From NCBI GenBank assembly GCA_004193285.1, contig SECP01000008.1, positions 124,001-188,000 of the forward strand: a stretch of 64,000 nucleotides of DNA. The letters run 5' to 3'. The notes beneath the pieces are model-generated. The model ran no database searches and was not told where the DNA came from. It saw nothing but the letters and a program-made list of their open reading frames with translations. A program made the translations under genes and the position numbers. The stretch comes from Myxococcales bacterium (GTDB lineage: Bacteria > Myxococcota_A > Polyangia > Polyangiales > Polyangiaceae). Position 1 is the stretch's first letter; each line of letters starts with the position of its first letter. Shown one piece after another: positions 5,582 to 34,579 of the stretch.

Positions 5582-6067
5582 ATGAAGCGAATCATTTCTG
5601 CGCTTTCGGTTCTGGCGTGCGTGACCACGTTCGGGCTGGCCGGCTGCGGCGGGGACGACGACGGTGACGGTGATGGAGCGGCCGGCAAGAGCGGTAACGA
5701 GCCGACGGCGGGCGCCCCGGCCACCGGTAGCCCCAATTTGGCCTGCGATCCGGCAGAAGCGACCACCTGTCAGAACGACACTGACTGCGACTTCGTGATC
5801 GACGGCACCGCTCGCTCCGCCGCCCAAGACTGCGGCAAGATGGACTGCCTGACGAGCGAAGATCCCGACTGTGCTCGCGAGTGCATCCTGGAGAAGCTGG
5901 ACATGACGTCCGACTGCGCCGCCTGCTATGCGGATTTCGTGGGCTGCACGATCCAAAATTGCGTGGCCGCGTGCATCGGCGATCCAGATTCGGACGAATG
6001 TCACGAGTGCCAAGAAACCGAAGGCTGCCGCCCCACCTTCGACGCGTGTAGCGGCCTACCCGAGTGA
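5582..6067 (+). CDS. Cysteine-rich lipoprotein
   Basis: A 161-residue exported lipoprotein. The signal peptide (1-20) ends in the lipobox LAGC, followed by a flexible Gly/Asp-rich linker with GGDDDGDGDG. The mature part is cysteine-rich, with a CAACYADFVGC segment and a tail ending CSGLPE. This C-x2-C spacing with GC and CSG tail resembles small cysteine-rich proteins I associate with myxobacterial genomes; their role is unknown. A GAGGAG ribosome-binding site lies eight bases before the ATG, which fixes the start. The stop overlaps the GTG start of the downstream FadL-like gene, so the two are probably co-expressed. Localisation to the outer membrane is inferred. Confidence 0.85.
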   Translation: MKRIISALSVLACVTTFGLAGCGGDDDGDGDGAAGKSGNEPTAGAPATGSPNLACDPAEATTCQNDTDCDFVIDGTARSAAQDCGKMDCLTSEDPDCARECILEKLDMTSDCAACYADFVGCTIQNCVAACIGDPDSDECHECQETEGCRPTFDACSGLPE

Positions 6068-7326
6068 CTCGAGTAAGCATGGCGCGGCGAACCGTGATGC
6101 GAAGCGCCGGATTTGGGGTGCTGGCGGCGGGCACGCTCGCCGCGTCCGGCGCCAGCGCGGCTGGTTTCGACACCCCCATTCTGTACACGGCTCGGCACCA
6201 AGCCATGGGCGGCACCGCCATCGGCTACGTGGATGACGCGTCGGCCGCTTTCCATAACCCGGCGGGGTTACAGGGAGTACGCGGCCTCGCTTTCACCGGA
6301 GATTTCAGCCTGATCCTGGGTAAGGTGCGCGGCAGCCCCACCCCGAGCGACAACCTCGAATCGCAAACCGTCGTCGCGCCGTTCTTCTTGCTCGGTGGCG
6401 CCTACCGGGTGCACGAATGGCTCACCTTGGGCGTGGCGGCATTTCCGGTCGCGTCCGGCGGCGCGGAGTACAAATACCCTGTCGGCGCCACCAACTGGAT
6501 CGACAAGACCGAGATCTTGTTCCTGGAAGCGTCCCCGCTCCTGAGCTTGAACGTGCCCAAGGACCGTTGGCTCCCCGGCAAGCTGGCGTTCGGCGCTGGC
6601 TGGCGCTTCAACTACGTGACCTTCGATCGCAAACGCGGTGAGCCGGACCGCTTGCAGTACTTGGATCTGGAGATGAGCGGAAAGAGCTTCGGCGGCTTCC
6701 GCGTTGGCGTGCAGTATCAACCGATCGAGCCGCTGAAGCTCGGCTTCGTGTTCCGCAACAAGGTCACCGTGACGACCGAAGCGGACTCGGCCACCGTCCT
6801 CACCTCGGAAGCGACCAACGCCGCGCTCGACTTCACGCTGCCGGCCAAGCTCGGGTTTGGTGCCCGCCTGGATCTCGGTCATTTTGGCGTAGCCAGCGAC
6901 GTCGAATACGCCTTTCAGAGCCAGAACAAGCGACCACCCCTCACCGGCACGCTGATGGGCCGCGACGCGCAGGTGCAGAACGTCTTCGATTGGAAGAACG
7001 GCGTCACGTGGCGCAACGGAGTGGAGTACCGCATCGGAGACATGCCTCAAGTGCCGCTCCGCATCGGTTACATCTACGACTCACGTGTCAGCAATCCGAT
7101 CTACCCGAGCGCTTTCGGAACGCCGCCTGCTGCAACTCACACCTTCACCTTCGGCGCTGGGTACAAGCGCGATACCTGGCAAGTGAACTGGGCGTTCAGT
7201 CGACGGATGGGCAGCGCCACCGTCGACACGACCGACACCCGCTGCGTTTTCTGCGGGTACCCCGGTAAGTACGAGATCACGATGACCGGTTTTTACGTGG
7301 ACGCCTCCGTGGACCTGCCGATCTAA
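6064..7326 (+). CDS. FadL/TodX-family outer-membrane channel for hydrophobic compounds
   Basis: A 420-residue outer-membrane beta-barrel of the OMPP1/FadL/TodX family, which admits long-chain fatty acids or aromatic hydrocarbons. The signal peptide covers about 1-33. The N-terminal hatch follows, with the family hallmark AFHNPAGL at about 61-68. The rest alternates polar and hydrophobic residues as in barrel strands, and the protein ends in ITMTGFYVDASVDLPI. Start is the GTG at 6064, overlapping the lipoprotein stop; an ATG at 6079 is an alternative. Substrate cannot be told from sequence. A link with the aromatic monooxygenase operon 25 kb away is possible but unsupported by position. Confidence 0.88.
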   Translation: MTRVSMARRTVMRSAGFGVLAAGTLAASGASAAGFDTPILYTARHQAMGGTAIGYVDDASAAFHNPAGLQGVRGLAFTGDFSLILGKVRGSPTPSDNLESQTVVAPFFLLGGAYRVHEWLTLGVAAFPVASGGAEYKYPVGATNWIDKTEILFLEASPLLSLNVPKDRWLPGKLAFGAGWRFNYVTFDRKRGEPDRLQYLDLEMSGKSFGGFRVGVQYQPIEPLKLGFVFRNKVTVTTEADSATVLTSEATNAALDFTLPAKLGFGARLDLGHFGVASDVEYAFQSQNKRPPLTGTLMGRDAQVQNVFDWKNGVTWRNGVEYRIGDMPQVPLRIGYIYDSRVSNPIYPSAFGTPPAATHTFTFGAGYKRDTWQVNWAFSRRMGSATVDTTDTRCVFCGYPGKYEITMTGFYVDASVDLPI

Positions 7327-23143: not shown

Positions 23144-26097
23144 TTCGAGCAGCCGAGCTCAACTCGACGACCGAGCGGTTTCCGCTCCGTCAACGTAGCC
23201 ATGACGGTCGGGCGGCCAGTCGCCGAGGCGCTACTGCTCGGCGCCCGCGCGGCACCTTTTGCGCTCCCTGCCTCGCCTTGAGCGGCGAGCGCGTCGATGC
23301 AAACGCCGAGCGAGGACACGCGAAACCGCCCCTCGAAGCTGCGCATCCCGAAGCCGGGCGGAGCTTCCGCCGCCGGATCTAGCCCGATCGACCCGGTCAC
23401 CAAGAAGCCCTCGGCGCCTTCCGCGCACGGCTCTGGCATGACGGCGAGCTGCGCCGGGGTGACGACGTAAGGCGCGTCCACCGTGCTCGTCTCCAGGTCG
23501 AGCGGGTGAACGAACCAGCCCGTGCTGCGCACCCAAATTCCGAGCGCGTCGCCGCTCGCGGTGCGCGTGAGCTCTGCGCTCGCCCCGCGTGGCGGCGGGA
23601 TGTCCGTCACCTCCAGCGCGACCTCCAGGTCTTGCCCCGCGACGCGGTAGACGCGCAGCGCGCGCGCGCCTTCATCGTACGATCCTAGGTAGTAGCCGGA
23701 CTTGGTTTTGACGAAACCCGACAAGCGCGACGCGACGCCGAGCCGACCCACGTTGGGCACCCGCAGCGGCACGCGGCCGGCTTCGAACACGAACAAATCC
23801 AGGGTGCCGCGAGAGCTGAGCAGTAGCGCACCAGCGCTGCCGCCCGGATCCAGCGCCGCGGCGAGGCCGGCCGCGTTGGTGCTCGGCTCCGCGCCGAGCG
23901 CGTCCGCTGCCGCCGCCGCGTCCGCCCAGGGGCTGCGCGAAAGGCCGCTGCGCCGCGCTCCGCCCAGGGTCGCGAAGCGATCCGCGAACGAGAAGCCGAG
24001 CGACCCCGCGCGCGTCCAGTCGCCACCGCGCGGGCCGTATGCGTAGACGCGCAGCTGCAAGCCTTGCGGCTCCGTGCCGGCGTCCACGCCCTCCCAGGTG
24101 TCCGGCAGCGGCGGCGGCGCTAGCTCCAAAAACGGCGAGAGCGGCGCGAGCAGCGCGTCCTCGCCGGGCCCGATTCGAGTGGGCTTCAAGCGCCGACCCG
24201 CCAGCGAGGTGGCCGCACGAAAGGGCAAGGCCGGCGCGCTCGCGTCCCCGGTGGGGCTGCAGTGAAGGCGCCAGCGAGAGCCGCCCGGGCCCGGAAAGGC
24301 GACTCGCGCGGGCGTGGTGGGCATGGCTAGGCTCCTCGCGGCGCGCCCTTCGAACCAACCCACGCGCACGAAGCCGGCGAAGCTGCAGCCCGCCGCGGAG
24401 CAACCTTGACGCAAGCCTTGTGAGAGCGCGGACCTCACGTCGGTCTCTGGAGGCAGCTCGACGGCTTGCCACTCCGCGCCGCCGTCCGTCGTCTCCGAGG
24501 CGAGCCCATTTTCGCCAAGCGAAAGCGCGCGGGTACCGGCAAAGAGCACGCGACTGGCGTTGTCCTGAGTGCGCCGGAGCGTGAGCTTGCCGTCCACCGC
24601 GAGCTGGACGCCCGCGAACGGACCCGCTCCCACGACCCAGCCCGACAGCACGCCGGGCTCGACCTCGACCATGCCGTCCAGCCACACCCCTTGCTCGAGC
24701 AAGCTCTTCTGTCGAGCGTCCTTGGTAGCGACCGCCAAGGGCACGCGCCGAACGGCGCGGCCCTGCCACACTGCCAGAGAGCCCGCCGCCCCCGCGCGGG
24801 GCGGGGTGACGACCGCGACGCGACCGTCCGCCAGCGCTACGACCCGGTCGCGCTCACCGCTGCTCCGAATTTCCTCGGTCGAGCCATCTGCGCGCACCAC
24901 GCAGTGCCGCTGAGCGACCGGGAGCCCGTCGCAGCCGCCACGCACCGAGAGCGCGCCCGAGCCGCTGTCCGTCACTGCGCGCGCGCCCGGTAGCTCGCGG
25001 AGCAGCGAGAGGCCGAGCGGGGCGGTAACGCGGTAGATGCGCGTGAGCTCCCGCCCCTGACCGCAGACGAAGCCGACGCCGCTACCGAGCCTCACGCCTT
25101 GGCACTCCGAGCTCGTGGAGTAAGCGCGCTCGCGCCGCTCGATGACCCGCCCCGTTTGTAACGACACACGGAGCAGCGACCCGCTCGCCGCGACCAGGGC
25201 GTTACCAGCGCCGTCCGGATAACCGCTCTGCACTGCCAGCTCCAGGAGCGACTCTGCGCTCTTACCGACGGCGGCGGGGGGAGGAGCCAGCGCGCGCTGC
25301 AGCTCCGCGCGCGCGGCTTCGCTGATCTTCTGCTGATCGCGATCGGCGACGTGCGAGAGCTGACCGCGCGCGTCCAGCAGGTAGTCGCCCGTCTGCGTCG
25401 AAAGCGCGAGCGCGTCCCCCGCGGCTTCGAAGCCGGTAACGGGCATCCCGAGCGGATGCCAGCTCGCGCCCGCGTCGAAGCTGAGCAAAACCCCGCGCAG
25501 CGGCACCTGGACGGCGCCGAACCAGCCGTCCACGAACGCCATGGGTCCGTACGCTGGGGCCGCGGGCAAGCCGATGGGCGGCACCGGCTCCCCCGTTTGC
25601 AGGTCCAGCGCTCGGTAGTCCGCGTCGCGCTTCGGCAGCACGAGCAGACGATCGAAGCCGGGAACGAAGCGCTCCGCCTCGAAGTCCAGCTGCGCGAGGG
25701 GCTCGAGCTTCGCAGTCCAGCTCGCGGCGCGGTACAGCAGCGTGCCGCTCGAGGAGACTATCCAGAACAGATAACCGGAGCCGAGCCGCGCCGGCAGCTC
25801 CGCAAAGCGCGCGCTGCGCGCCGCCGGTAGCAGCTCGTCGCCCACCTCCAGCGAGCCGTCCGCGCGCTCGATGACGCGCAAGCCGAAGGCGAGCAAGCGA
25901 CGTGAACCGTCGTGCTCCAAACCTGCGTCGGTGACGCCAGCGCCCTTCGTCGGCGGAAAGAGGCGCGGGCTCGACGGCGCCGGCTTGGAGCTCGGTAGCG
26001 AAAACGTCGCCGCCGGGGCGCTCGGCTCGGGTGAGCGAGCGCCCGCGCAGCTCAGCAGCATGCCGAGCGCGAAAGCGGCCGAGCCCCCGAGCCGCAT
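23140..26097 (-). CDS. Large lipoprotein with sialidase-like Asp-box repeats
   Basis: A 985-residue predicted lipoprotein. The signal peptide MRLGGSAAFALGMLLSC ends in a lipobox. The remainder is beta-rich and holds at least two Asp-box motifs of the BNR/sialidase-propeller kind, SFDAGASWHPL near 205 and TTDGGAEWQAV near 540, so a beta-propeller fold is likely. No sialidase catalytic arginine set can be assigned and I do not infer an enzyme. I placed the start at the ATG at 26095-26097; extending the frame upstream would run into asd, in a different frame. asd lies ten bases upstream on the same strand. Surface display is inferred. Confidence 0.75.
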   Translation of the reverse strand: MRLGGSAAFALGMLLSCAGARSPEPSAPAATFSLPSSKPAPSSPRLFPPTKGAGVTDAGLEHDGSRRLLAFGLRVIERADGSLEVGDELLPAARSARFAELPARLGSGYLFWIVSSSGTLLYRAASWTAKLEPLAQLDFEAERFVPGFDRLLVLPKRDADYRALDLQTGEPVPPIGLPAAPAYGPMAFVDGWFGAVQVPLRGVLLSFDAGASWHPLGMPVTGFEAAGDALALSTQTGDYLLDARGQLSHVADRDQQKISEAARAELQRALAPPPAAVGKSAESLLELAVQSGYPDGAGNALVAASGSLLRVSLQTGRVIERRERAYSTSSECQGVRLGSGVGFVCGQGRELTRIYRVTAPLGLSLLRELPGARAVTDSGSGALSVRGGCDGLPVAQRHCVVRADGSTEEIRSSGERDRVVALADGRVAVVTPPRAGAAGSLAVWQGRAVRRVPLAVATKDARQKSLLEQGVWLDGMVEVEPGVLSGWVVGAGPFAGVQLAVDGKLTLRRTQDNASRVLFAGTRALSLGENGLASETTDGGAEWQAVELPPETDVRSALSQGLRQGCSAAGCSFAGFVRVGWFEGRAARSLAMPTTPARVAFPGPGGSRWRLHCSPTGDASAPALPFRAATSLAGRRLKPTRIGPGEDALLAPLSPFLELAPPPLPDTWEGVDAGTEPQGLQLRVYAYGPRGGDWTRAGSLGFSFADRFATLGGARRSGLSRSPWADAAAAADALGAEPSTNAAGLAAALDPGGSAGALLLSSRGTLDLFVFEAGRVPLRVPNVGRLGVASRLSGFVKTKSGYYLGSYDEGARALRVYRVAGQDLEVALEVTDIPPPRGASAELTRTASGDALGIWVRSTGWFVHPLDLETSTVDAPYVVTPAQLAVMPEPCAEGAEGFLVTGSIGLDPAAEAPPGFGMRSFEGRFRVSSLGVCIDALAAQGEAGSAKGAARAPSSSASATGRPTVMATLTERKPLGRRVELGCSN

Positions 26098-26107
26098 GAG
26101 CGGACCT

Positions 26108-27139
26108 TTAAGCCTGCAGCTCCGGATCTTCGGACTTGAACCAGCGGCTGGCCACGCGCACCGCGTTGGTGGCGGCGCCGAGGCGCAGGTTGTCGCCCAC
26201 CACCGTGATGCACAGCGTGCGACCGCTCTTGTCGCGAGAATCCGGGCGAACCCGGCCGACCAGCGCGCGGTCCCGCGCCTTGACCGAGTACAGGGCGGAG
26301 AGGCCTTCACCCGCCGCGCCGGCCAAGAAGTTCACGAATGGCGCCTTGGCCGAGTCCGAGAGGACCGCCGCGACTTGCTCGGGCGAGACGGCTTTGCCGA
26401 AGGTGACCCAAGCGTTTTCGTAGTGACCCACCGCGACTCCGACGCGGCAGCACTGCGCGCTGACCCCGAGCTCCGGCAGCTCCAGGATCTTCTTCGCTTC
26501 GAACATGAGCTTGCGCTCCTCCGAAGAGAAGCCGCTCTCGTCCGTCCCGCCGTTGTGGGGCACGGTGTTGCCCGCGTAAGCCTTGGGATCGAACACGTTA
26601 CCGAAGCGGTCCAGCTCTTGGTAGCCCGCCTTGCTCTGCTCCAAAAAGCCGTCCAGCGCGGCAATGCCGGCGCCGCTGACGGCCTGGTAGGTGCTGACCG
26701 TCACGTCCTCCAGGCCGAACTCCTGCTGCAGGGGCTTGAGCGCGAGGGTGAGTGGGATGGTCGTGCAGTTCGGGTTCGCGACGAGCCGCACCTCCTCCGT
26801 CACCCGATTGGAGTTCACGCCGGCGGCGACGAGCGGCACCTTCGCGTCGCCGCGGTAGGTGTTGCTCTTGTCGATGACGCGATAGCCGAGCGAGAGGAGG
26901 CGCGGCACGAAGCGCTTGCTGTGCTCGTCGTCCAGCGCGACGAGGGCCAAGTCCCCCTTGGGCGCGCCCTCCTCCTCGAGCTTGGGCGCGGCTTCCACCT
27001 TGTAGGTCTTGCCCCCGTGCTTGAGCTCTTGATCGCGGCTCGCGTACAAGGACAGCGTCGCGCCGGGCCAGGCGCGCGCAACGAGGTCGAGCGACTCACG
27101 CCCGACCAGACCGGTGGCTCCGAGGAGGCAGATGCGCAT
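26108..27139 (-). CDS. asd: Aspartate-semialdehyde dehydrogenase
   Basis: NADPH-dependent reduction of aspartyl phosphate to aspartate semialdehyde, the branch-point step to lysine/diaminopimelate, threonine and methionine. The 343-residue enzyme has the N-terminal Rossmann motif LLGATGLVGRE, the catalytic cysteine in ANPNCTTIPL (Cys125), and the dimerisation and second active-site region with SAQCCRVGVAVGHYENA. Start is the ATG at 27137-27139, directly at the Rossmann strand; the open frame upstream is not family-like. It diverges from thyX across 145 bases and precedes the large lipoprotein gene by ten bases. Confidence 0.95.
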   Translation of the reverse strand: MRICLLGATGLVGRESLDLVARAWPGATLSLYASRDQELKHGGKTYKVEAAPKLEEEGAPKGDLALVALDDEHSKRFVPRLLSLGYRVIDKSNTYRGDAKVPLVAAGVNSNRVTEEVRLVANPNCTTIPLTLALKPLQQEFGLEDVTVSTYQAVSGAGIAALDGFLEQSKAGYQELDRFGNVFDPKAYAGNTVPHNGGTDESGFSSEERKLMFEAKKILELPELGVSAQCCRVGVAVGHYENAWVTFGKAVSPEQVAAVLSDSAKAPFVNFLAGAAGEGLSALYSVKARDRALVGRVRPDSRDKSGRTLCITVVGDNLRLGAATNAVRVASRWFKSEDPELQA

Positions 27140-27284
27140 GGGGCGGCGGTGTAGCAGCTGTTTGGCCGATCTTCCAGGGGAGCGCCTGCCTTTCGCCAAC
27201 GTTTTCGCTGACATTCCGAGGGCATCGGCAATTTTTCGAAGGAGGCGTTGCGTCCGCGGTTTCGGCGCCCGTATTACGGTGCCG

Positions 27285-28271
27285 ATGTCCAGCAAGCGTC
27301 CCGTCTCGCCCGGCGCCGAAGAGATCCTCGGCCAGTACTTCCCCGTGCTCGACCACGGCTTCGTGGCGCTGGTGGACTACATGGGGACGGACGAGTGCAT
27401 CGAGCGCGCGGCGCGGGTGAGCTACGGCTACGGCACCCGTAAAGCCAGCCTGACCCGCGGGCTACTCCGCTACCTGCGGCGGCACCTGCACACGACCCCG
27501 AGCGAGATGCTCGAGCTGAAGTTCCATTGCTGCATGCCGATGTTCATCGCAAGGCAGTGGATTCGCCATCGCGCCGCGAACGTCAACGAGTACAGCGGGC
27601 GCTACTCGCTGATGCCGATGCTGTTTTACACGCCCAGCGCCGAGCAGCTGCAGACGCAGAGCCGCACCAACAACCAAGGGCGCAGCGGCACGCCGGTCTC
27701 GCCGGAGGCGTACGCGGAGTCCGTGCAGCGCTGGAACCAGATTCGCAAGCTCAGCCGTGAAGCGTACGAGCAGATGACGGCCGCGGACATGGCGCGGGAG
27801 CTGGCGCGCATCGACCTGCCGCTCTCCACGTATACCCAGTGGTACTGGAAGATCGATTTGCACAACTTCCTGCACTTCTTGAAGCTGCGAGTGGACCGTC
27901 ACGCGCAGTGGGAGATACAGGAGTACGGCCGCGTCATGGCCGGGATGCTCAAGCGCGTCGCGCCGCTGAGCTACGAGGCCTGGATCGACTACGACGTGTG
28001 CGGCGCGCGGATGTCGCGCATGGATCTGGACGCCATCCGCAAGCTGGTGAGCGTCAAGGAGGGCGGCTTGGAGGGGCGCGGAGGCAGCTTGTCCGCGACC
28101 GAGCTGGACGAGCTCGGCCTCGCCAAGCGCGAGATCGCCGAGCTGCTCGCGAAGCTCGAGCCGAGCCAGGCGCCGGACTTCGAGCTCGACCTATCGAGCG
28201 CAAAGAGCGCCGAGTGGTTCGGGGAGGAGTTTCAGAAGGCGGTGCCTAAGCTGGACAAGCCGCCCGAATGA
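27285..28271 (+). CDS. thyX: FAD-dependent thymidylate synthase ThyX
   Basis: Makes dTMP from dUMP using methylene-tetrahydrofolate, FAD and NADPH. The signature RHR-x7-S is complete (Arg94, His95, Arg96, Ser104) within QWIRHRAANVNEYSGRYS. The later flavin and substrate segment HNFLHFLKLRVDRHAQWEIQ is split here only by description and shows the expected Arg and His. At 328 residues it is longer than the usual 220-260; the extra 70 or so lie at the C-terminus after about residue 255 and are charged and helical. The 3' end overlaps the convergent hybrid-kinase gene by 26 bases. No thyA is present in the window. Confidence 0.94.
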   Translation: MSSKRPVSPGAEEILGQYFPVLDHGFVALVDYMGTDECIERAARVSYGYGTRKASLTRGLLRYLRRHLHTTPSEMLELKFHCCMPMFIARQWIRHRAANVNEYSGRYSLMPMLFYTPSAEQLQTQSRTNNQGRSGTPVSPEAYAESVQRWNQIRKLSREAYEQMTAADMARELARIDLPLSTYTQWYWKIDLHNFLHFLKLRVDRHAQWEIQEYGRVMAGMLKRVAPLSYEAWIDYDVCGARMSRMDLDAIRKLVSVKEGGLEGRGGSLSATELDELGLAKREIAELLAKLEPSQAPDFELDLSSAKSAEWFGEEFQKAVPKLDKPPE

Positions 28272-30213
28272 CCGCGTCCGCGATCATGCGGTCGATGAAC
28301 TGCGCCAGCGCTTGGGCGTCGAACGGCTTGCCCAGCACGGGGCGCGCGGCTGTCTCCAGGAACTTGCTCGTGTCCGGTGTGACCGCCCCCCCGGTGATGA
28401 AGGCGACCCGCGTCATCAAGCTCGGGTAGAGCCGACGCACGACCCCGAAGAAATCCATGCCGGACTCGCCCGGCATCATCAGGTCACACAGTACGGCGTC
28501 GAAGTCCGCCCGCTGGTTCAGCACCGCCAGCGCCGCGCGCACGGAGTCCGCCGTGGTCACGCGGTAGCGGCCAGAAAGCAGGCGGCTCACGAGCGTGCGG
28601 ATCATCGGCTCGTCGTCGATGAGGAGGATGCTCGGCGCGTCCCTCAGCACCGACAGGCCGCGGGCCGGGGGTGGAGGAACCGAGGACAGCCGGAGCATCG
28701 ACGCGGGCATGTCTTCTTGGCTGGGGGGCAGACGGACGCGAAAGCGGCTGCCGTGGCCGACCGCGCTCTCCACCGTGATGTCCCCGCCGAAACCCTGCAC
28801 GATGCTGCGACAAATGCTGAGCCCGAGCCCCGTGCCGAGCCCGACCGGCTTGGTCGTGAAGAACGGCTCGAAGATGGAGAGTCGCGTCTCCTCCGGCATG
28901 CCCTGACCGTTGTCCTCCACCTCGATGATGGCGCTGCCGGTCTCGTCCGTCCACGTCGACACCTTCACCTCGTTCAGCTCCCGCTCGGCACCGAGCGCCT
29001 GCACCGCGTTCGTGAGCAAGTTGACGACGACCTGCGAGAGCTTGAGCTCGTTGGCTTTGACGGGCGGAACGTCCCGTAGGCTGGTGAGCAGCCGCGCGTG
29101 GTGAAGCAGCTGATTGCCAGTGAGCCGGAGCGCCCAGTCCACGCACGCCCGGGGGTCGACCGCACGCTGAACGCGCTCTTCCATTCGCCCGAAGGCGCGT
29201 AGCTCTTTGACCGTGTTGGCGACGCGGCCCGCGCCGTCCTCCGCGTCACGGAGGCTGCGCACGACGCGGTCCAGCGCGTCCCGCGGGCCTGCGGGGAGCT
29301 CCACCGCCAGCCGCTCTAGCTCTGCGACCGCGAGGCCGAGGTTGCCGATGGTGTAGGAGAGAGGATTGTTGATTTCGTGCGCCACGCTCGCGACCAGCGT
29401 ACCCAGCGAGCTCAGGCGGTCCGTGAGGGCGAGCTGCTCGTCGCGCCGGCGCTGCTCGGTCACGTCGTGCAGCACGAGCACGGCGCCCAGCACGCGCTCA
29501 CGGTGCACGATGGGCGCGACGCTGCCCTCGAGCAGTAGCGAGGCGCCGCTGCTCGGCCTCGTTGCTTCGAAAAAGAAGGTGCTCGGTGACCGCGACGACA
29601 TGGACTGCGCGACCTCCACCACGTGCGTGCCTCGCCCGAGGAGCTCGCCGAGCTGACGACCACGCGCTTGTTCCTGCTCTTGACCGAGCAGGCGCTGGGC
29701 GGCGGCGTTCAAAAACGTGACGTGCTCCTCCGCGTCGCAGGCGACCACGGCGTCTGCGATCGCGCCTAGCGTGGTGGAGAACCAACGCTCGCGATCCGCC
29801 AGCTGCTGGTCGAGCCGGTGCTTGTGGAGCGCGACTTGGAGCGCGCTCTTGACCTCCCCGATCGTGAACGGCTTGACGACGTAGCCGTAGGCGCCGGTGC
29901 GGGCGGCGCGCTGCAGCGTTTCGTCGTCCGTGTGGGCGGTCATGTACACGACGGGCACGTCGTGCTCGGCCCGTAGCCGCTCCGCGACCTCGAACCCCTC
30001 GCACTTGCCACGCAAGCGAATGTCCACCAGCGCTACGTCCGGCAGCGCGGCGTGCACCAGCGCGGCCGCGTCCGCCGCGGTGGAGGCGATGCCAGTCACC
30101 ACGTACCCCGCGTCCTGCAGACTGCGTTCCACGTGGGTGGCAACGACGCGCTCGTCCTCGACGATCAGCACACGTGGATCCCGCAGTCCGCCTGGAATTG
30201 CCACAGCGTTCAT
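28246..30213 (-). CDS. Hybrid histidine kinase REC-PAS-HisKA-HATPase-REC
   Basis: A 655-residue cytosolic phosphorelay protein with no membrane helix. The first receiver domain (13-125) has Asp64 and switch Lys in VKPF. A PAS-like domain follows (about 143-255). The HisKA domain carries His279 in SVAHEINNPLSYT. The HATPase has VEDNGQGMPEE and a GTGLGLSI box. A second receiver (about 528-640) has its aspartate near 577 in LCDLMMPG. It is the last gene of the monooxygenase operon, and its ATG overlaps the stop of the PAS/HisKA_2 kinase by four bases. The N-terminal receiver may accept phosphate from that kinase; this is inference. No DNA-binding output is encoded nearby. Confidence 0.93.
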   Translation of the reverse strand: MNAVAIPGGLRDPRVLIVEDERVVATHVERSLQDAGYVVTGIASTAADAAALVHAALPDVALVDIRLRGKCEGFEVAERLRAEHDVPVVYMTAHTDDETLQRAARTGAYGYVVKPFTIGEVKSALQVALHKHRLDQQLADRERWFSTTLGAIADAVVACDAEEHVTFLNAAAQRLLGQEQEQARGRQLGELLGRGTHVVEVAQSMSSRSPSTFFFEATRPSSGASLLLEGSVAPIVHRERVLGAVLVLHDVTEQRRRDEQLALTDRLSSLGTLVASVAHEINNPLSYTIGNLGLAVAELERLAVELPAGPRDALDRVVRSLRDAEDGAGRVANTVKELRAFGRMEERVQRAVDPRACVDWALRLTGNQLLHHARLLTSLRDVPPVKANELKLSQVVVNLLTNAVQALGAERELNEVKVSTWTDETGSAIIEVEDNGQGMPEETRLSIFEPFFTTKPVGLGTGLGLSICRSIVQGFGGDITVESAVGHGSRFRVRLPPSQEDMPASMLRLSSVPPPPARGLSVLRDAPSILLIDDEPMIRTLVSRLLSGRYRVTTADSVRAALAVLNQRADFDAVLCDLMMPGESGMDFFGVVRRLYPSLMTRVAFITGGAVTPDTSKFLETAARPVLGKPFDAQALAQFIDRMIADAVIRAACPA

Positions 30214-31271
30214 GGCGAGCCCTCCTCGAAGGTGAGCTGAAAACGAGTGCCGCCCGCTCTTTCGACGAGCAGCTCCGCCTCCAGCTGTTTGGCGAATATC
30301 GCTACGAGATCCAGCCCCAAGCCGTGGCGTTTGCCAAGCGGAAAGTCGCCGCCCAAGCCGACGCCGTCATCGCGTACGACGAGACGCAAGCCAGATGGGG
30401 CGATACGCGTCAGCTGCACCTCGAGCGTACCATGCCGCTCGTCGGGGAAGGCATGCTTGAGCGCGTTAGTGACCAGCTCGCTCACGAGCAGACCGCAGGG
30501 GATGGCTCGCTCGGGAACGAGCTCCACTTCTTCCAGATTCAGCGAGACCTCGACCCTTTCGCCGGCACCGCTGTTGCGGCACAGCCCGGGGATCAGCGCC
30601 TCCACGTACCGCGCCAGGTTCACCGCGGAAAGATTGCGGGAGCCGTAGAGCTGCTCGTGCACCAGCGCGATCGAGTCGATACGACGCTGGCCCTCCGCCA
30701 GCGCGTGCTGCGCCTCCACCCCGACGCCGCGGGCCTGCAGCGCGAGCATGCTGGAAACCAGCTGGAGATTGTTCTTCACCCGATGATGGATCTCACTCAG
30801 GAGCACCTCGCGCTCGCGCAGCGCGGCCGCCAGCGCGCCGGTCCGAGCCCGCAAAGACTCGGCAGATTCGCGCATTTCCGTGATGTCCACGCACGAGCCG
30901 ATGAATCCCTCGAACAGGCCCGTCGGACCGTAACGGGGGGTGCCCTGGTCCAGAATCCAACGGTACTGGCCATCCGCGCGGCGCAGCCGGTACTCGATGC
31001 GGAATGCGGCGCGAGCGACGAAGGCGGCCAAGTAGCGATCCATGCAGTCTTGAAAGTCGTCCGCGTGGACGCCTTCGGCCCAGCCATTGCCACGCTCTTG
31101 CTCGAGAGAGCGACCGGTGAAGTGGAGCCAAGTGGAGTTGAAGAACTCACAGAGCCCATCCAACCCCGACATCCACAACATGACCGGCGCGTGGTCCGCC
31201 AAGAGCCGAAAGCGGGCGTCCTCCGCGCGATCCGGCGCGCCGATGATGGGCGGACTAGAACGAGTCGGCAC
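30210..31271 (-). CDS. PAS-domain sensor kinase, HisKA_2 type
   Basis: A 353-residue soluble sensor kinase. A PAS domain spans about 18-130 (FRLLADHAPVMLWMSGLDG, then the PAC-like RRADGQYRWILDQGTPRYG). The phosphoacceptor region is the HisKA_2 type, SEIHHRVKNNLQLVSSML with His162/His163. The HATPase has LVSELVTNALKHAF and RDDGVGL motifs. It has no receiver domain, so a partner must accept the phosphate; the downstream hybrid kinase starts with a receiver. The 5' end overlaps the hydroxylase beta-subunit gene by 17 bases. PAS pockets can bind small hydrophobic ligands, so sensing a monooxygenase substrate or product is plausible but untested. Confidence 0.92.
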   Translation of the reverse strand: MPTRSSPPIIGAPDRAEDARFRLLADHAPVMLWMSGLDGLCEFFNSTWLHFTGRSLEQERGNGWAEGVHADDFQDCMDRYLAAFVARAAFRIEYRLRRADGQYRWILDQGTPRYGPTGLFEGFIGSCVDITEMRESAESLRARTGALAAALREREVLLSEIHHRVKNNLQLVSSMLALQARGVGVEAQHALAEGQRRIDSIALVHEQLYGSRNLSAVNLARYVEALIPGLCRNSGAGERVEVSLNLEEVELVPERAIPCGLLVSELVTNALKHAFPDERHGTLEVQLTRIAPSGLRLVVRDDGVGLGGDFPLGKRHGLGLDLVAIFAKQLEAELLVERAGGTRFQLTFEEGSP

Positions 31272-32268
31272 GAGGCGCCTCCCCTACTTCGACGGCGAGC
31301 AAGCCTGCTCGGCCCAGGTGCGCCGAGAGCGCGGAGTCCAGCTCCCGCCACACGTAAGCGCGAGCTCCGTCGTCCTGGAGGAGGCGGTCGAACGCGGGCA
31401 ACAGAGCTTGTAGCGCGCTCGCAGCCCGCGGTCGCCACGCGAGCACCTGAGCTTGCATCTTCTCCGTTTCTGCTGGCTCGCGCTGCGCGGCGAGCTGGGC
31501 GAACGCGACGAACCAGGTTTCGTGCCACAAGCCGTCATCCCCTAGCGAGCTCAATATCTTCTCCAAAATCTCGTCGTCGTGCCGCTCCGCCAAGCTGACG
31601 GCCTGCTCGAACCAGAGGCGGTCGAAGAGCGGCTTGATGACGCCGCTCAGCGCAACCAGCGCCTGCTGCCAGTCGTAAACGACGAGCAGCTCCTCCACGA
31701 GGCGCCGCAGCGGCTGCAGCGCCGGCCCCTGCTGCCAAAGCTCGCGGCCCAGCGCGTCCAGCTCCGCCGAGGGCCGGCCGGACCGGGAGAGCCACTGGCA
31801 GATGCGCTGAATGCGCCGGAGCTCGTCCGCCGCCTGGAGCGCGGCCGTGATCGCGATGCGGCCGCTGGGCGCGAACGCGCCGATGTAAGCGGCCGCCATT
31901 TGCATGCCGTGCAGGGCGAAGCGCAGCGCGCTCAGCAAGCCGAGGAGCGGCTCCAACGCGGGCACGAGGCCGCGTGCGGGTCGCTCCAGCAGGCGATCGA
32001 GAAAGGCCTCCTGATCACGCCGCTCCGCTACGTAACCGGCGTAGGTGAGCGCGGCGGGGTCGCGAAAGGCGTCCCAGCCAGAGGCAGGGACGTAGTGGCG
32101 CAGCACCGGCGAATCCACCTCGAAGCCGCGCTCGGGGTAGTACAGCAGCGCCGTGCTCGTGATCTCGTAGTCCGTCGGCTTGCGACGCGAGCTCTCCAGG
32201 CACCAGTAGGTGCGCCGCGCCGGCGGCAACGCCCGCGCCACGCGAATCTCTCGCGGCGAGCTGGTCAT
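31255..32268 (-). CDS. tmoE: Toluene/aromatic monooxygenase hydroxylase beta subunit
   Basis: The 337-residue beta chain of a soluble diiron monooxygenase hydroxylase, a ferritin-like helical partner of the alpha subunit without its own iron site. Family traits include the early RTYWCLESSRRKPTDYEI segment, then ALLYYPERGFEVDSPVLRHY (about 41-60, split only here) and GWDAFRDPAALTY. Length is close to that of TmoE (about 330). It is the fifth gene of a tmoABCDE-ordered set, its ATG overlapping the effector gene's stop by four bases. Substrate range cannot be deduced from this subunit. The gene symbol is by homology and order. Confidence 0.9.
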   Translation of the reverse strand: MTSSPREIRVARALPPARRTYWCLESSRRKPTDYEITSTALLYYPERGFEVDSPVLRHYVPASGWDAFRDPAALTYAGYVAERRDQEAFLDRLLERPARGLVPALEPLLGLLSALRFALHGMQMAAAYIGAFAPSGRIAITAALQAADELRRIQRICQWLSRSGRPSAELDALGRELWQQGPALQPLRRLVEELLVVYDWQQALVALSGVIKPLFDRLWFEQAVSLAERHDDEILEKILSSLGDDGLWHETWFVAFAQLAAQREPAETEKMQAQVLAWRPRAASALQALLPAFDRLLQDDGARAYVWRELDSALSAHLGRAGLLAVEVGEAPRADSF

Positions 32269-32543
32269 GGTTCAGCCGCCTCCCAGATGGCGCGCTCGGT
32301 GTCCACGCTCAGCCTCCCCTTGAACGATGCCATGCAAAGCTCCAAATCTGCCGGAAGCGCGAAGGCTCGACCCAGCGCCTCTTCGATCGCCGCACGCGTC
32401 ACGGCGCAGCGCCCCGGCGAGAGGACTCGCAGGTAAGCGCCCCGGTCCCAAACTCTGACCGCGGGGTTGCCAGCGCGAATCGCCGAGAGCACGGCGCGCC
32501 CCAGCTCGGAAGGGAGCAGCACGGGGCCGACCTCCACCGTCAC
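32265..32543 (-). CDS. tmoD: MmoB/DmpM-type effector protein
   Basis: A 92-residue cofactorless regulatory protein that docks on the hydroxylase and tunes oxygen activation, as TmoD, DmpM and MmoB do. The expected pattern is seen: VGPVLLPSELGRAVLSAIR near the N-terminus, then VRVWDRGAYLRVLSPGRC and a helix ending in ELCMASFKGRLSVD. Start is the GTG at 32541-32543, which overlaps the ferredoxin stop by four bases; longer upstream readings are only the ferredoxin gene in another frame. It is slightly shorter than TmoD (about 103). Confidence 0.87.
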   Translation of the reverse strand: MTVEVGPVLLPSELGRAVLSAIRAGNPAVRVWDRGAYLRVLSPGRCAVTRAAIEEALGRAFALPADLELCMASFKGRLSVDTERAIWEAAEP

Positions 32544-32860
32544 GGTAGCCCCCGGTGGTCGTCGGCGGTGACGTGCACTCGCCCGTCTTCGGTGCGCGAC
32601 GGGATCGCCGCGAGGCAGGACGACCGCGGATTGATGCCGGCGCCGGTCGCGGCGTCGAAGGTGTGCCCGTGCAAGAGGCAGGTAATGACGCCGCCTTCCA
32701 AACGGCCCTCGCTGAGGGGGTACCCCTGATGCGGACAGCGATCGCGGTACACACACACGCCATGCTCGGTGCGGACGACGAGGAGCCGCTGCCCGCCGAG
32801 GGTGACCCCCCGCATCTCTCCGACCCACAGCTCATCCACCTGCAGCGACAGCTCAGCCAC
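32540..32860 (-). CDS. tmoC: Rieske [2Fe-2S] ferredoxin of the monooxygenase
   Basis: A 106-residue Rieske ferredoxin that carries electrons from a reductase to the hydroxylase. The cluster ligands are visible as C-x-H in RCPHQGYPLSEG (Cys42, His44) and C-x2-H in TCLLHGHTFD (Cys61, His64), with the normal spacing. Length matches TmoC. Its ATG lies eight bases inside the end of the gamma-subunit gene. The reductase that should feed it is not in the window, so electrons must come from an enzyme encoded elsewhere. Confidence 0.94.
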   Translation of the reverse strand: MAELSLQVDELWVGEMRGVTLGGQRLLVVRTEHGVCVYRDRCPHQGYPLSEGRLEGGVITCLLHGHTFDAATGAGINPRSSCLAAIPSRTEDGRVHVTADDHRGLP

Positions 32861-33101
32861 CTGCAGGCTCCGATGAGAGATCCACGCGGTCCAGCGCGGA
32901 GATGCCGGCCTCTTTCAGGCTCGAGTCACCCGGCAGCGCCCGGCCTCGGTGCACGACGCGCAATTTACCAGTCAGGGTGACGCGCGGCGCCGCGGCCCGC
33001 GCGAGGCGCTGGGCCAGCTCGTCTACCGTCTCCGACTCCGGAGCGAGCACGACCAGGCCGAGCGTGTCGCCCTGCACGAATACGTAGAGTGGGAGGCTCA
33101 C
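32853..33101 (-). CDS. tmoB: Monooxygenase hydroxylase gamma subunit
   Basis: An 82-residue protein of the TmoB/TouB kind, a small ubiquitin-like subunit that sits on the hydroxylase surface. It starts MSLPLYVFVQGD, has a central beta-alpha region with ETVDELAQRLAR and ends KEAGISALDRVDLSSE, as in TmoB. The ATG overlaps the alpha-subunit stop by four bases. Function is structural by homology. Sequence is short, but position between alpha subunit and ferredoxin, matching tmoA-B-C order, makes the call firm. Confidence 0.88.
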   Translation of the reverse strand: MSLPLYVFVQGDTLGLVVLAPESETVDELAQRLARAAAPRVTLTGKLRVVHRGRALPGDSSLKEAGISALDRVDLSSEPAGG

Positions 33102-34579
33102 GGCTCACCTTTCTCGTCGCGCAGAAATGGGTAGTCACCGGAGCGGATGTCCCGACCCCAATTGGCCTCCGAAAGCCCGAAATACTTGAGCAGCTCGAGC
33201 AGGTTGGCGGGCGCCTCCCCGGACAAGATGCGCTCCACCACCCCGCGGTGCGCCGCGTAACGCTCCGGCTCCGCTTCGAACAGCTCCCGGCAAGGCTCCG
33301 AGCAGAAGACATGCCGGCGGCCGCCGCGCTCGACGAACACGGCCGAGTTCTGGGTAGGGGTGCCACCGCAGAGCACGAGCTGGCACAGGTTGCAGAACGC
33401 GACGGGGGTGGTGCCGTGAGTGAACCACTCCACGCCCGGTCCGGCTGCGCGCCAGCGCTCCGTGATGTTTTCCCAGACCGGCGCGAGCGCAGGCCAAGTG
33501 GAGGGGTACTTTTCCGCGAGCCACGCGCGTTCGTCCGGCCCCGGCAGCACGAAGTCGAACCAAGTGGTCGCCCGGTAGCTGTAAGCGCTGGCGTACAGCA
33601 TGTGGTGGTAGATGGGCAGCGCGTCCAAAAAGGCCTGCCAGTACCGTGGCCGCGCTAGGCCGAGCTCGTCCAGCGAGCTTTGAAATTGATCGACCACCCA
33701 CTCTTCCACGAACTCACGGAAGCTGCCGCGCCGGGCCGAGAGGGGCGTGAGGTAGTCCATGGCGAAGCCCGTCACCACCGCGAAGAAGCGGAACGAGCGC
33801 CAGAACCACTTGTCGACCAGGCGCTGAGCTCGCGCGGGGTCGACCTGAACCAGCTTCCGCAAGACGGGGTTACCAATCTGGGCGTGGCGCGCTTCGTCCG
33901 TCTGGATGCTTTGCAGCATCTGTTCGAACAGCTTGTCCCCCGACTCCCGCGCCATCGACGTGAGCCCGATGAATTGTAGATTCGTGAAGCCGGTTTCGAA
34001 CACGAAGTGCGTGCCGATTGCGAACTCGATAGCGTCCGAGCCCAGCAGCAGCTCGTCCACCAAGTGCCTCCCGGCGACCGCGATCCAATCGCTGCTGTGC
34101 AGGAGGCGGTGGGTCCACTCGAATTGCTGATCCCAGCGCACCAGATCATGCATGGCGCGCAGCGGGAGCTGGGTGTGCCGCAGCTCGTCCAGCGCGCCGA
34201 GCAAGGAGGTTTGGCGCCACGCGCTGTCGCGACCGAAGCGAGCCGAGCGGAGGTTGCCGACCATCGCCGCGAACTCCGCGAGCGGCAGGGTGGCCATGTG
34301 CAGCTTGACCACGGACAGCCAACCAGGGTCCAGCTTGGCTACGTCTTCTACGCGCCCGAGCGCCTCCGCGATGGCTTGAAACGCGACCTCTTTACGATGC
34401 TGAGTCGCCACGTACTCCGAGAACGTGGAGCGGAAGGGCTCGTCCCACTCCCGCCATTCCCGCGCGCTCAGCCACGGCGTACCGCACAGCGCCTCGGGGA
34501 ACACCGCGCGTTCGTCCGCATAGCTGAACGACCAGTCCAGCTTCCGAGCCAAATCGCACCACTCGTCCCGAAGCGGCAT
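33098..34579 (-). CDS. tmoA: Toluene/aromatic monooxygenase hydroxylase alpha subunit
   Basis: The 493-residue catalytic chain of a soluble diiron monooxygenase that inserts one oxygen atom into aromatic or alkene substrates. All six iron ligands are present at a constant offset of minus two from toluene 4-monooxygenase: Glu102 (AEFAA), Glu132 and His135 (DELRH), Glu195 (FVFETGFTN), Glu229 and His232 (DEARH). The active-site threonine is Thr199. A cysteine-containing YHS-like segment lies at about 405-450. First gene of the operon; it diverges from nadA over 161 bases. AGGAGG sits 21 bases before the ATG, too far for normal use, while AGGTG is three bases away. Substrate is unknown. Confidence 0.93.
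   Translation of the reverse strand: MPLRDEWCDLARKLDWSFSYADERAVFPEALCGTPWLSAREWREWDEPFRSTFSEYVATQHRKEVAFQAIAEALGRVEDVAKLDPGWLSVVKLHMATLPLAEFAAMVGNLRSARFGRDSAWRQTSLLGALDELRHTQLPLRAMHDLVRWDQQFEWTHRLLHSSDWIAVAGRHLVDELLLGSDAIEFAIGTHFVFETGFTNLQFIGLTSMARESGDKLFEQMLQSIQTDEARHAQIGNPVLRKLVQVDPARAQRLVDKWFWRSFRFFAVVTGFAMDYLTPLSARRGSFREFVEEWVVDQFQSSLDELGLARPRYWQAFLDALPIYHHMLYASAYSYRATTWFDFVLPGPDERAWLAEKYPSTWPALAPVWENITERWRAAGPGVEWFTHGTTPVAFCNLCQLVLCGGTPTQNSAVFVERGGRRHVFCSEPCRELFEAEPERYAAHRGVVERILSGEAPANLLELLKYFGLSEANWGRDIRSGDYPFLRDEKGEP

Follow-up and report, generated by a model that had tools for sequence, protein, structure and literature searches.

Why should an operon for a toluene-monooxygenase-type enzyme run directly into genes for two sensor kinases? 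The question is raised by seven minus-strand genes, tmoA, tmoB, tmoC, tmoD, tmoE, HK1 and HK2 in that order, which occupy positions 28246-34579 of a 64,000-nucleotide stretch of DNA (the window) from a Myxococcales bacterium (GenBank assembly GCA_004193285.1, contig SECP01000008.1, positions 124,001 to 188,000). We found a sensor of this kind next to related oxygenases in many uncultured bacteria, which suggests that the oxygenase and the sensor may act on the same chemical. The reading we favour, with a probability of roughly 0.6, is a self-contained oxygenase cassette that carries its own phosphorelay for sensing the substrate or the product. The window lies in a contig of 199,595 bases, and the genome (8.66 megabases) is an estimated 98.11% complete and 7.78% contaminated.

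Pfam was applied to chosen genes only. The seven genes, and the domains of the two kinases on which the argument turns, are as follows.

33098-34579, minus strand: tmoA-like diiron hydroxylase alpha subunit, 493 amino acids; Phenol_Hydrox (2.3e-58) and YHS in Pfam; toluene 4-monooxygenase structure 3dhg_A at 1.6e-108.
32853-33101, minus strand: tmoB-like gamma subunit, 82 amino acids; TmoB in Pfam at 5.2e-07.
32540-32860, minus strand: tmoC-like Rieske ferredoxin, 106 amino acids; Rieske in Pfam at 1.8e-17; T4moC (1sjg_A) at 6e-22.
32265-32543, minus strand: tmoD-like effector protein, 92 amino acids; MmoB_DmpM in Pfam at 6.4e-21; T4moD (2bf3_A) at 1.5e-10.
31255-32268, minus strand: tmoE-like hydroxylase beta subunit, 337 amino acids; Phenol_Hydrox in Pfam at 6.5e-42; toluene/o-xylene monooxygenase (ToMO) structure 1t0q_B at 6.6e-31.
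30210-31271, minus strand: HK1, a PAS-HisKA_2-HATPase kinase of 353 amino acids; PAS_3, HisKA_2 and HATPase_c in Pfam.
30852-31223, minus strand: PAS domain of HK1, of a subtype common to the tmo-linked kinases, by sequence comparison across loci.
30579-30794, minus strand: HisKA_2 phospho-acceptor domain of HK1 with the motif HHRVKN; Pfam, residues 160-231.
28246-30213, minus strand: HK2, a REC-PAS-HisKA-HATPase-REC hybrid kinase of 655 amino acids; two Response_reg stretches, PAS, HisKA and HATPase_c in Pfam.
29839-30171, minus strand: N-terminal receiver (REC) of HK2 with putative phospho-acceptor Asp64; Pfam, residues 15-125.
28270-28638, minus strand: C-terminal receiver of HK2 with putative phospho-acceptor Asp577, from the sequence and the second Response_reg stretch in Pfam.

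From tmoA to HK2 successive genes overlap by 4, 8, 4, 4, 17 and 4 bases, and the place, the order and all six overlaps are exactly those given in the initial annotation of this DNA. Pfam also bore out the kinase architectures it had proposed: HK1 has a HisKA_2 core and no receiver, and HK2 has a receiver both first and last, with Asp64 at the correct position in the first of these. The six overlaps are identical in a congener (locus L041), whose TmoA is 91% identical to that of the window. Between the two, synonymous divergence (dS) over the seven genes is 0.71-1.67 and the ratio of nonsynonymous to synonymous divergence (dN/dS) is 0.064-0.240; purifying selection acts on all seven.

We then asked how widely such an oxygenase occurs. 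A scan of one genome per species gave 267 related stretches, of which the best 80 were used. TmoA of these is 54-91% identical to the window in 28 loci, 46-49% in eight actinobacterial loci that form a sister group and at most 42% in the remaining 44. The 28 loci and the window form one TmoA clade of 29 rows in a 53-row tree made by a quick method (support 100 in the Shimodaira-Hasegawa-like approximate likelihood ratio test, SH-aLRT). By record titles the clade reaches Myxococcota, Pseudomonadota, Bdellovibrionota, Fibrobacterota, Planctomycetota and Acidobacteriota; since all 28 loci are metagenome-assembled genomes, binning errors may inflate this spread. Ten of the 108 genomes in the window's family, its own included, have such a gene, and an eleventh match (G036), just 27% identical, was not counted. 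The sister loci (L074-L080 and L084) give matches to tmoA, tmoC, tmoD and tmoE, and no kinase or reductase match was seen in the stretch examined. Among the open-licence papers listed in literature searches, we found none that describes such an oxygenase clade or such a monooxygenase-kinase operon.

A histidine kinase was present within the examined stretch in 24 of the 28 clade loci, one of which (L055) was counted from tblastn alone. The four without are L062, which has a STAND-type regulator gene, L068, a contig of 4.7 kb, L069, where none was seen, and L070, with a PAS-PAS-sigma54 activator. The Acidobacteria-type subclade (L062-L070) was set aside for the count of genes downstream of tmoE. 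Outside it 17 of 19 loci extend past tmoE (L083 stops 92 bases after the gene and L055 before it), and in all 17 the gene directly after tmoE is a PAS kinase with one and the same PAS subtype; a core is seen behind the PAS domain in 16 of them, the contig of L081 ending before it. Among 55 comparison loci outside the clade (52 from the species scan and three plasmids) no kinase match was found at E<=1e-8, in a set that is mostly actinobacterial and in which divergent kinases could be missed. The initial annotation had reasoned that the adjacency would be accidental if the kinases were absent beside tmoABCDE in all other genomes, and these loci show the opposite. At several loci additional kinases or receivers do lie upstream of tmoA, as might be seen if the genes had come together by chance in a kinase-rich genome. 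That explanation is already contradicted and extremely improbable because of the unbroken run of 17 loci, the conserved PAS type and the overlaps, which are unchanged in a congener although dS is near 1. The conclusion that the link between oxygenase and kinase is selected, not accidental, is well supported by these comparisons.

The PAS domain stays constant while the kinase cores behind it are swapped. Among 18 aligned kinases the H-box motif assigns ten cores to HisKA_2 and seven to HisKA, and one is missing at a contig end; Pfam supports these motif-based types for the window, L053 (as L042) and L072 (as L048) only. Identities were computed on the 16 rows in which the core is complete to its end, and two cut rows were left out because L081 ends before the core, so that no later column could have counted as invariant. 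We found a mean pairwise identity of 66% for the PAS domain (37 of 114 columns invariant) and of 30% for the core (6 of 190). Across the two core types the means are 65% for PAS and 20% for the core. Placed on the TmoA tree, core type needs four changes, at least two of them forced by starred branches. In a 55-row tree the PAS domains of these 18 kinases group together with support 97/96, and no row from outside the tmo loci falls among them. Identity to the window's PAS domain is 95% in the congener and 60-69% in the other linked loci, whereas no other PAS domain of the genome that holds the window exceeds 43%. Four acidobacterial loci have a PAS domain 56-59% identical on a kinase divergent from tmoA.

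These data bear on a different account, in which the kinases are ordinary regulators that sit in the operon by happenstance and answer a general cue (redox, energy, oxygen) rather than the chemistry of the oxygenase. Such regulators might be expected from the wide occurrence of the PAS subtype, which is also carried by other kinases and by proteins with an EAL domain, and HK2 resembles the myxobacterial EspA/EspC-type hybrid kinases, though far below curated cut-offs. We judge the account improbable, as one supported PAS clade tracks the oxygenase clade while the cores swap, and the comparison loci gave no kinase match at E<=1e-8. The PAS domain was also considered as a LOV, heme or TodS-like type, but the matches listed from searches by profile and by fold were to PAS domains and kinases in general. 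The predicted model is weak over residues 1-35 and was not a basis for ligand claims.

How might the two kinases work together? Read in order, HK1 and HK2 give PAS-HK followed by REC-PAS-HK-REC. Neither has a membrane-like segment by hydropathy (the only method applied, without a dedicated predictor), the highest 19-residue Kyte-Doolittle means being 1.35 and 1.41, which agrees with the soluble kinases of the initial annotation. A receiver resembling the first receiver of HK2 (42-90% identity) was present at 8 of 8 other informative HisKA_2 loci versus 0 of 7 HisKA loci. At L056 it sits just upstream of tmoA; L052, where the contig ends inside HK1, was left out of this count although a 45% match lies far upstream, and the 26% receiver match of the HisKA locus L051 is below the level of these receivers. 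This gene content favours a relay from HK1 to the first receiver of HK2, for which it is suggestive. At HisKA loci other genes follow the kinase: a receiver and a REC-GGDEF protein at L050 (14761-16127), a protein that joins GGDEF and EAL to two receivers at L051 (14582-16759), two receivers and HATPase at L072 (as L048), and PAS and HK at L061. No partner gene was identified next to the kinase at L053, L059 and L060. From these domains, a cyclic di-GMP output is possible in L050 and L051.

Most likely the window's system works in a TodS/TmoS-like way, with HK1 sensing substrate or product and passing phosphate to HK2. The diiron enzyme would hydroxylate or epoxidise a small hydrophobic molecule, with electrons probably reaching the Rieske protein from a reductase encoded elsewhere. 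The PAS domain of HK1 would read a molecule tied to this reaction, either substrate or product, and HK1 would autophosphorylate on the histidine of HHRVKN. As in TodS and TmoS, phosphate would then move to Asp64 of HK2, to the histidine of HK2 and on to either its C-terminal receiver or a response regulator encoded at a distance.

Several observations weigh against a cassette of this kind. Only two independent pairs on supported branches stand behind the link between the first receiver and HisKA_2 (p 0.5), and for this reason we call the relay suggestive; at L050 and L051, two of the seven HisKA loci, the receiver-first partner is of another kind. Within the Acidobacteria-type subclade the stretches examined for L062, L067, L069 and L070 contain other regulators or no regulator, and that of L068 is too short for a verdict. 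The PAS subtype is also widespread: it matches 633 plasmid records at E<=1e-5 and, within the phylum, 36 of 356 genomes at E<=1e-20, a number that takes in G276 and the window's genome. A PAS copy outside tmo loci, on a Paraburkholderia plasmid, is 60.7% identical by blast and therefore within the 60-69% range of the linked ones, and a single clade of the four acidobacterial PAS domains with the 18 is neither shown nor rejected (p-AU 0.479 in the approximately unbiased test). No TodS structure was present for the PAS domain among the 60 listed of 79 profile matches, nor among the 50 fold-search matches listed. Finally, no DNA-binding regulator was found in the window operon or its four Pfam-named neighbours (thyX, nadA, sulfatase and carbonic anhydrase).

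For that stretch the initial annotation was right that no such regulator is encoded, but its statement does not extend to the surroundings of every relative: a sigma-54 response regulator occurs at L032, a REC-LuxR protein at L065 and a PAS-sigma54 activator at L070. At L032 (11171-11632, genome G276) a gene with two CBS domains ends just before tmoA, with two receiver proteins beside it and the sigma-54 response regulator further off. As for the PAS domain, its many plasmid and genome matches rule out that it is exclusive to the oxygenase. Since the subtype is common outside tmo loci, this PAS type was evidently not invented here; one lineage of the subtype has stayed with the oxygenase clade. 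Six near copies (up to 60.7%) had no tmo gene in the surrounding 8-14 kb examined.

The cassette presupposes a working enzyme. TmoA residues 4-477 align with toluene 4-monooxygenase (T4MO; 3dhg_A, the best solved relative), the beta, Rieske and effector subunits match their counterparts in T4MO or ToMO, and the alpha, gamma, Rieske, effector and beta subunits are all encoded in one operon, as in toluene-monooxygenase-type systems. The six diiron ligands of the alpha subunit, which we take to be E-E-H-E-E-H and placed via the 3dhg_A alignment, are unchanged in all 29 rows of the clade, as are the active-site Thr, Asn and Gln positions. At the pocket positions presumed to matter in T4MO (residue numbers transferred from the pairwise alignment with 3dhg_A), the clade has Thr in place of Leu192 (28 of 29 rows), Pro in place of Gln141 (29 of 29, and 8 of 8 sister rows) and Leu or Phe in place of Ile100 (29 of 29). 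With its catalytic residues kept, the enzyme looks active. A clade-specific metal site in the YHS tail of TmoA was considered and rejected: the motif CxxC...CxxxC is invariant in the clade, but all 8 sister rows share it and so, depending on position, do 12-16 of 16 outgroup rows. Two loci have reduced gene sets by tblastn. At L059 tmoC is seemingly absent and the tmoB and tmoD matches are about 40 bases apart (5972-6482). At L062 (3544-15010) a clade tmoA has no tmoB, tmoD or tmoE matches, and the adjoining regulator gene is of the STAND-type AAA kind.

An oxygenase of this type also needs electrons. As the initial annotation stated, the window operon has no reductase gene; a TmoF-type reductase (Fer2-FAD-NAD) was likewise matched in 0 of 28 clade loci. 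The gene is truly missing, but its absence does not set the clade apart, since 41 of the 55 comparison loci, some of them short stretches, have no match either (and three of the 14 that do are query sources). The further suggestion that the kinases take the reductase's place is not supported, given those 41 loci and two other genomes of the family, G422 and G396, which have both the cluster and a full-length reductase match of 36-37% on another contig. The remaining seven of the nine other family genomes with the cluster gave weaker or partial matches (G425 partial only), and two plasmid controls were matched. When the window's own genome was searched, as the initial annotation had proposed, it yielded FAD/NAD-domain matches of partial length and, apart from these, a single match to the Fer2 region, but no full-length reductase, and no match to Reductase_C (BphA4-type, PF14759), which was matched in 3 of 14 control genomes. 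The reductase probably acts in trans.

What the enzyme is for is suggested in part by the genes around it. Six meta-cleavage pathway proteins and one coenzyme M lyase, used as queries at E<=1e-15, gave no match in the window and one match in the 28 clade loci (an aldehyde dehydrogenase, 34%, at L050). This sparse context leans towards signalling or co-metabolism. It would fit an oxygenase that serves as a sensory front end, one that turns an inert compound into a ligand for the PAS domain (or reports O2), so that the cell gains a signal and not carbon. The GGDEF and GGDEF-EAL partners at L050 and L051, the operon without a reductase and the joint encoding of enzyme and sensor with conserved overlaps point the same way, as does the lack of a catechol 2,3-dioxygenase match in the window's genome. 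There is also a precedent, since for isoprene oxidation a section of PMC4676930 names the monooxygenase product, or a later metabolite, as the inducer. We nevertheless regard a purely sensory role as possible but doubtful. Catabolic matches are rare in the comparison loci too (at least one in 10 of 55, two of these being query sources), the catechol 2,3-dioxygenase search was made without a positive control, the window's genome has one partial intradiol dioxygenase match, and in our judgement a five-subunit oxygenase would be costly as a mere sensor. A broader proposal holds that the clade provides an enzymatic input to phosphorelays, in which the oxygenase makes, from a volatile that would otherwise give no signal, the ligand for the PAS domain inherited with it, and interchangeable kinase cores lead to different outputs (hybrid kinases, cyclic di-GMP enzymes). 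We put this forward as speculative and rather unlikely. A cassette that senses its own substrate or product remains the reading we prefer, and the isoprene case counts in its favour as well.

We compared this cassette with systems already described. The window has subunits A to E in the order of the annotated TmoABCDEF/TouABCDEF plasmid clusters and shares with them the diiron ligands, the Thr, Asn and Gln residues, the Rieske protein and the effector. It differs in the absence of the reductase gene F, in a TmoA at most 40.4% identical to plasmid relatives among the matches listed, and in the pocket changes at the T4MO Leu192 and Gln141 positions, the latter common to the sister group.

The closest functional parallel is with TodS/TodT and TmoS/TmoT, kinases that lack a membrane segment and are tied to a toluene oxygenase. 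As described in part of PMC4861429, TodS has the order PAS-HK-RRR-PAS-HK, that is PAS-HK-REC-PAS-HK, and relays phosphate through both histidines and the middle receiver; toluene binds its first PAS domain, and TmoS is linked to toluene-4-monooxygenase. In the window the relay would be split over two polypeptides with an extra C-terminal receiver, the first kinase is of the HisKA_2 type, and no TodT-like DNA-binding response regulator lies alongside the kinases. Judged from sequence, then, the system would be TodS/TmoS-like in its working but not a member of that family, being made of two polypeptides with no cognate DNA-binding regulator and no PAS kinship detected among the profile matches listed.

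A sensor kinase also lies beside the tmoA-F cluster of Dechloromonas aromatica, where Table 2 of PMC2907700 places a 963-amino-acid histidine kinase and a NarL-type regulator after tmoF and tbuX. According to that part of the source, tmoF and tbuX separate the oxygenase from the single kinase, and the cluster has a DNA-binding-type regulator and surrounding aromatic-degradation genes, unlike the window. This example runs counter to the initial annotation's view that classical tmo operons keep their kinase separate. The EtnR1/EtnR2 and smo pairs of a LuxR-type regulator and a kinase, described in a portion of PMC8784404, similarly lie beside soluble diiron monooxygenases acting on alkenes and alkanes. 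These enzymes belong to other monooxygenase groups (4 and 6), and the pairs are upstream or adjacent and include DNA-binding partners. EtnR2 has a MEDS domain in that account, and within our clade the Solibacter locus L067 (360-1856, a metagenome-assembled genome) has a MEDS-domain histidine kinase divergent from tmoA that is reminiscent of EtnR2 of ethene oxidisers. The system in the window stands apart from all of these in that enzyme and sensor are coupled in one operon, the relay is split and its kinase cores are swapped between loci, the PAS domain is of another type, and the operon has no DNA-binding regulator.

The operon is flanked by a divergent nadA on one side and a convergent thyX on the other. 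The last 26 bases of thyX (27114-28271) and of HK2 coincide in a tail-to-tail overlap (28246-28271), and the convergent pair is present in the congener as well. The thyX product, 385 amino acids with its domain at 83-290, is longer than the family model. A neighbouring gene for a protein of 427 amino acids (25871-27154) had no Pfam match. A promoter and terminator scan gave a signal no higher than shuffles, and a search of viral contigs gave no match.

If the preferred reading is true, it would add an oxygenase clade with a sensor in the same operon, the two kept together across distant bacteria. Because the sensor stayed in the operon over such distances, the ligand of the PAS domain and the substrate of the enzyme could be found together. 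HK1 and HK2 would also be a natural example of a TodS-type relay divided between two proteins, making the passage of phosphate in multi-kinase hydrocarbon sensors directly testable. For the uncultured bacteria that carry it, the cassette would point to the sensing of small, perhaps volatile, molecules.

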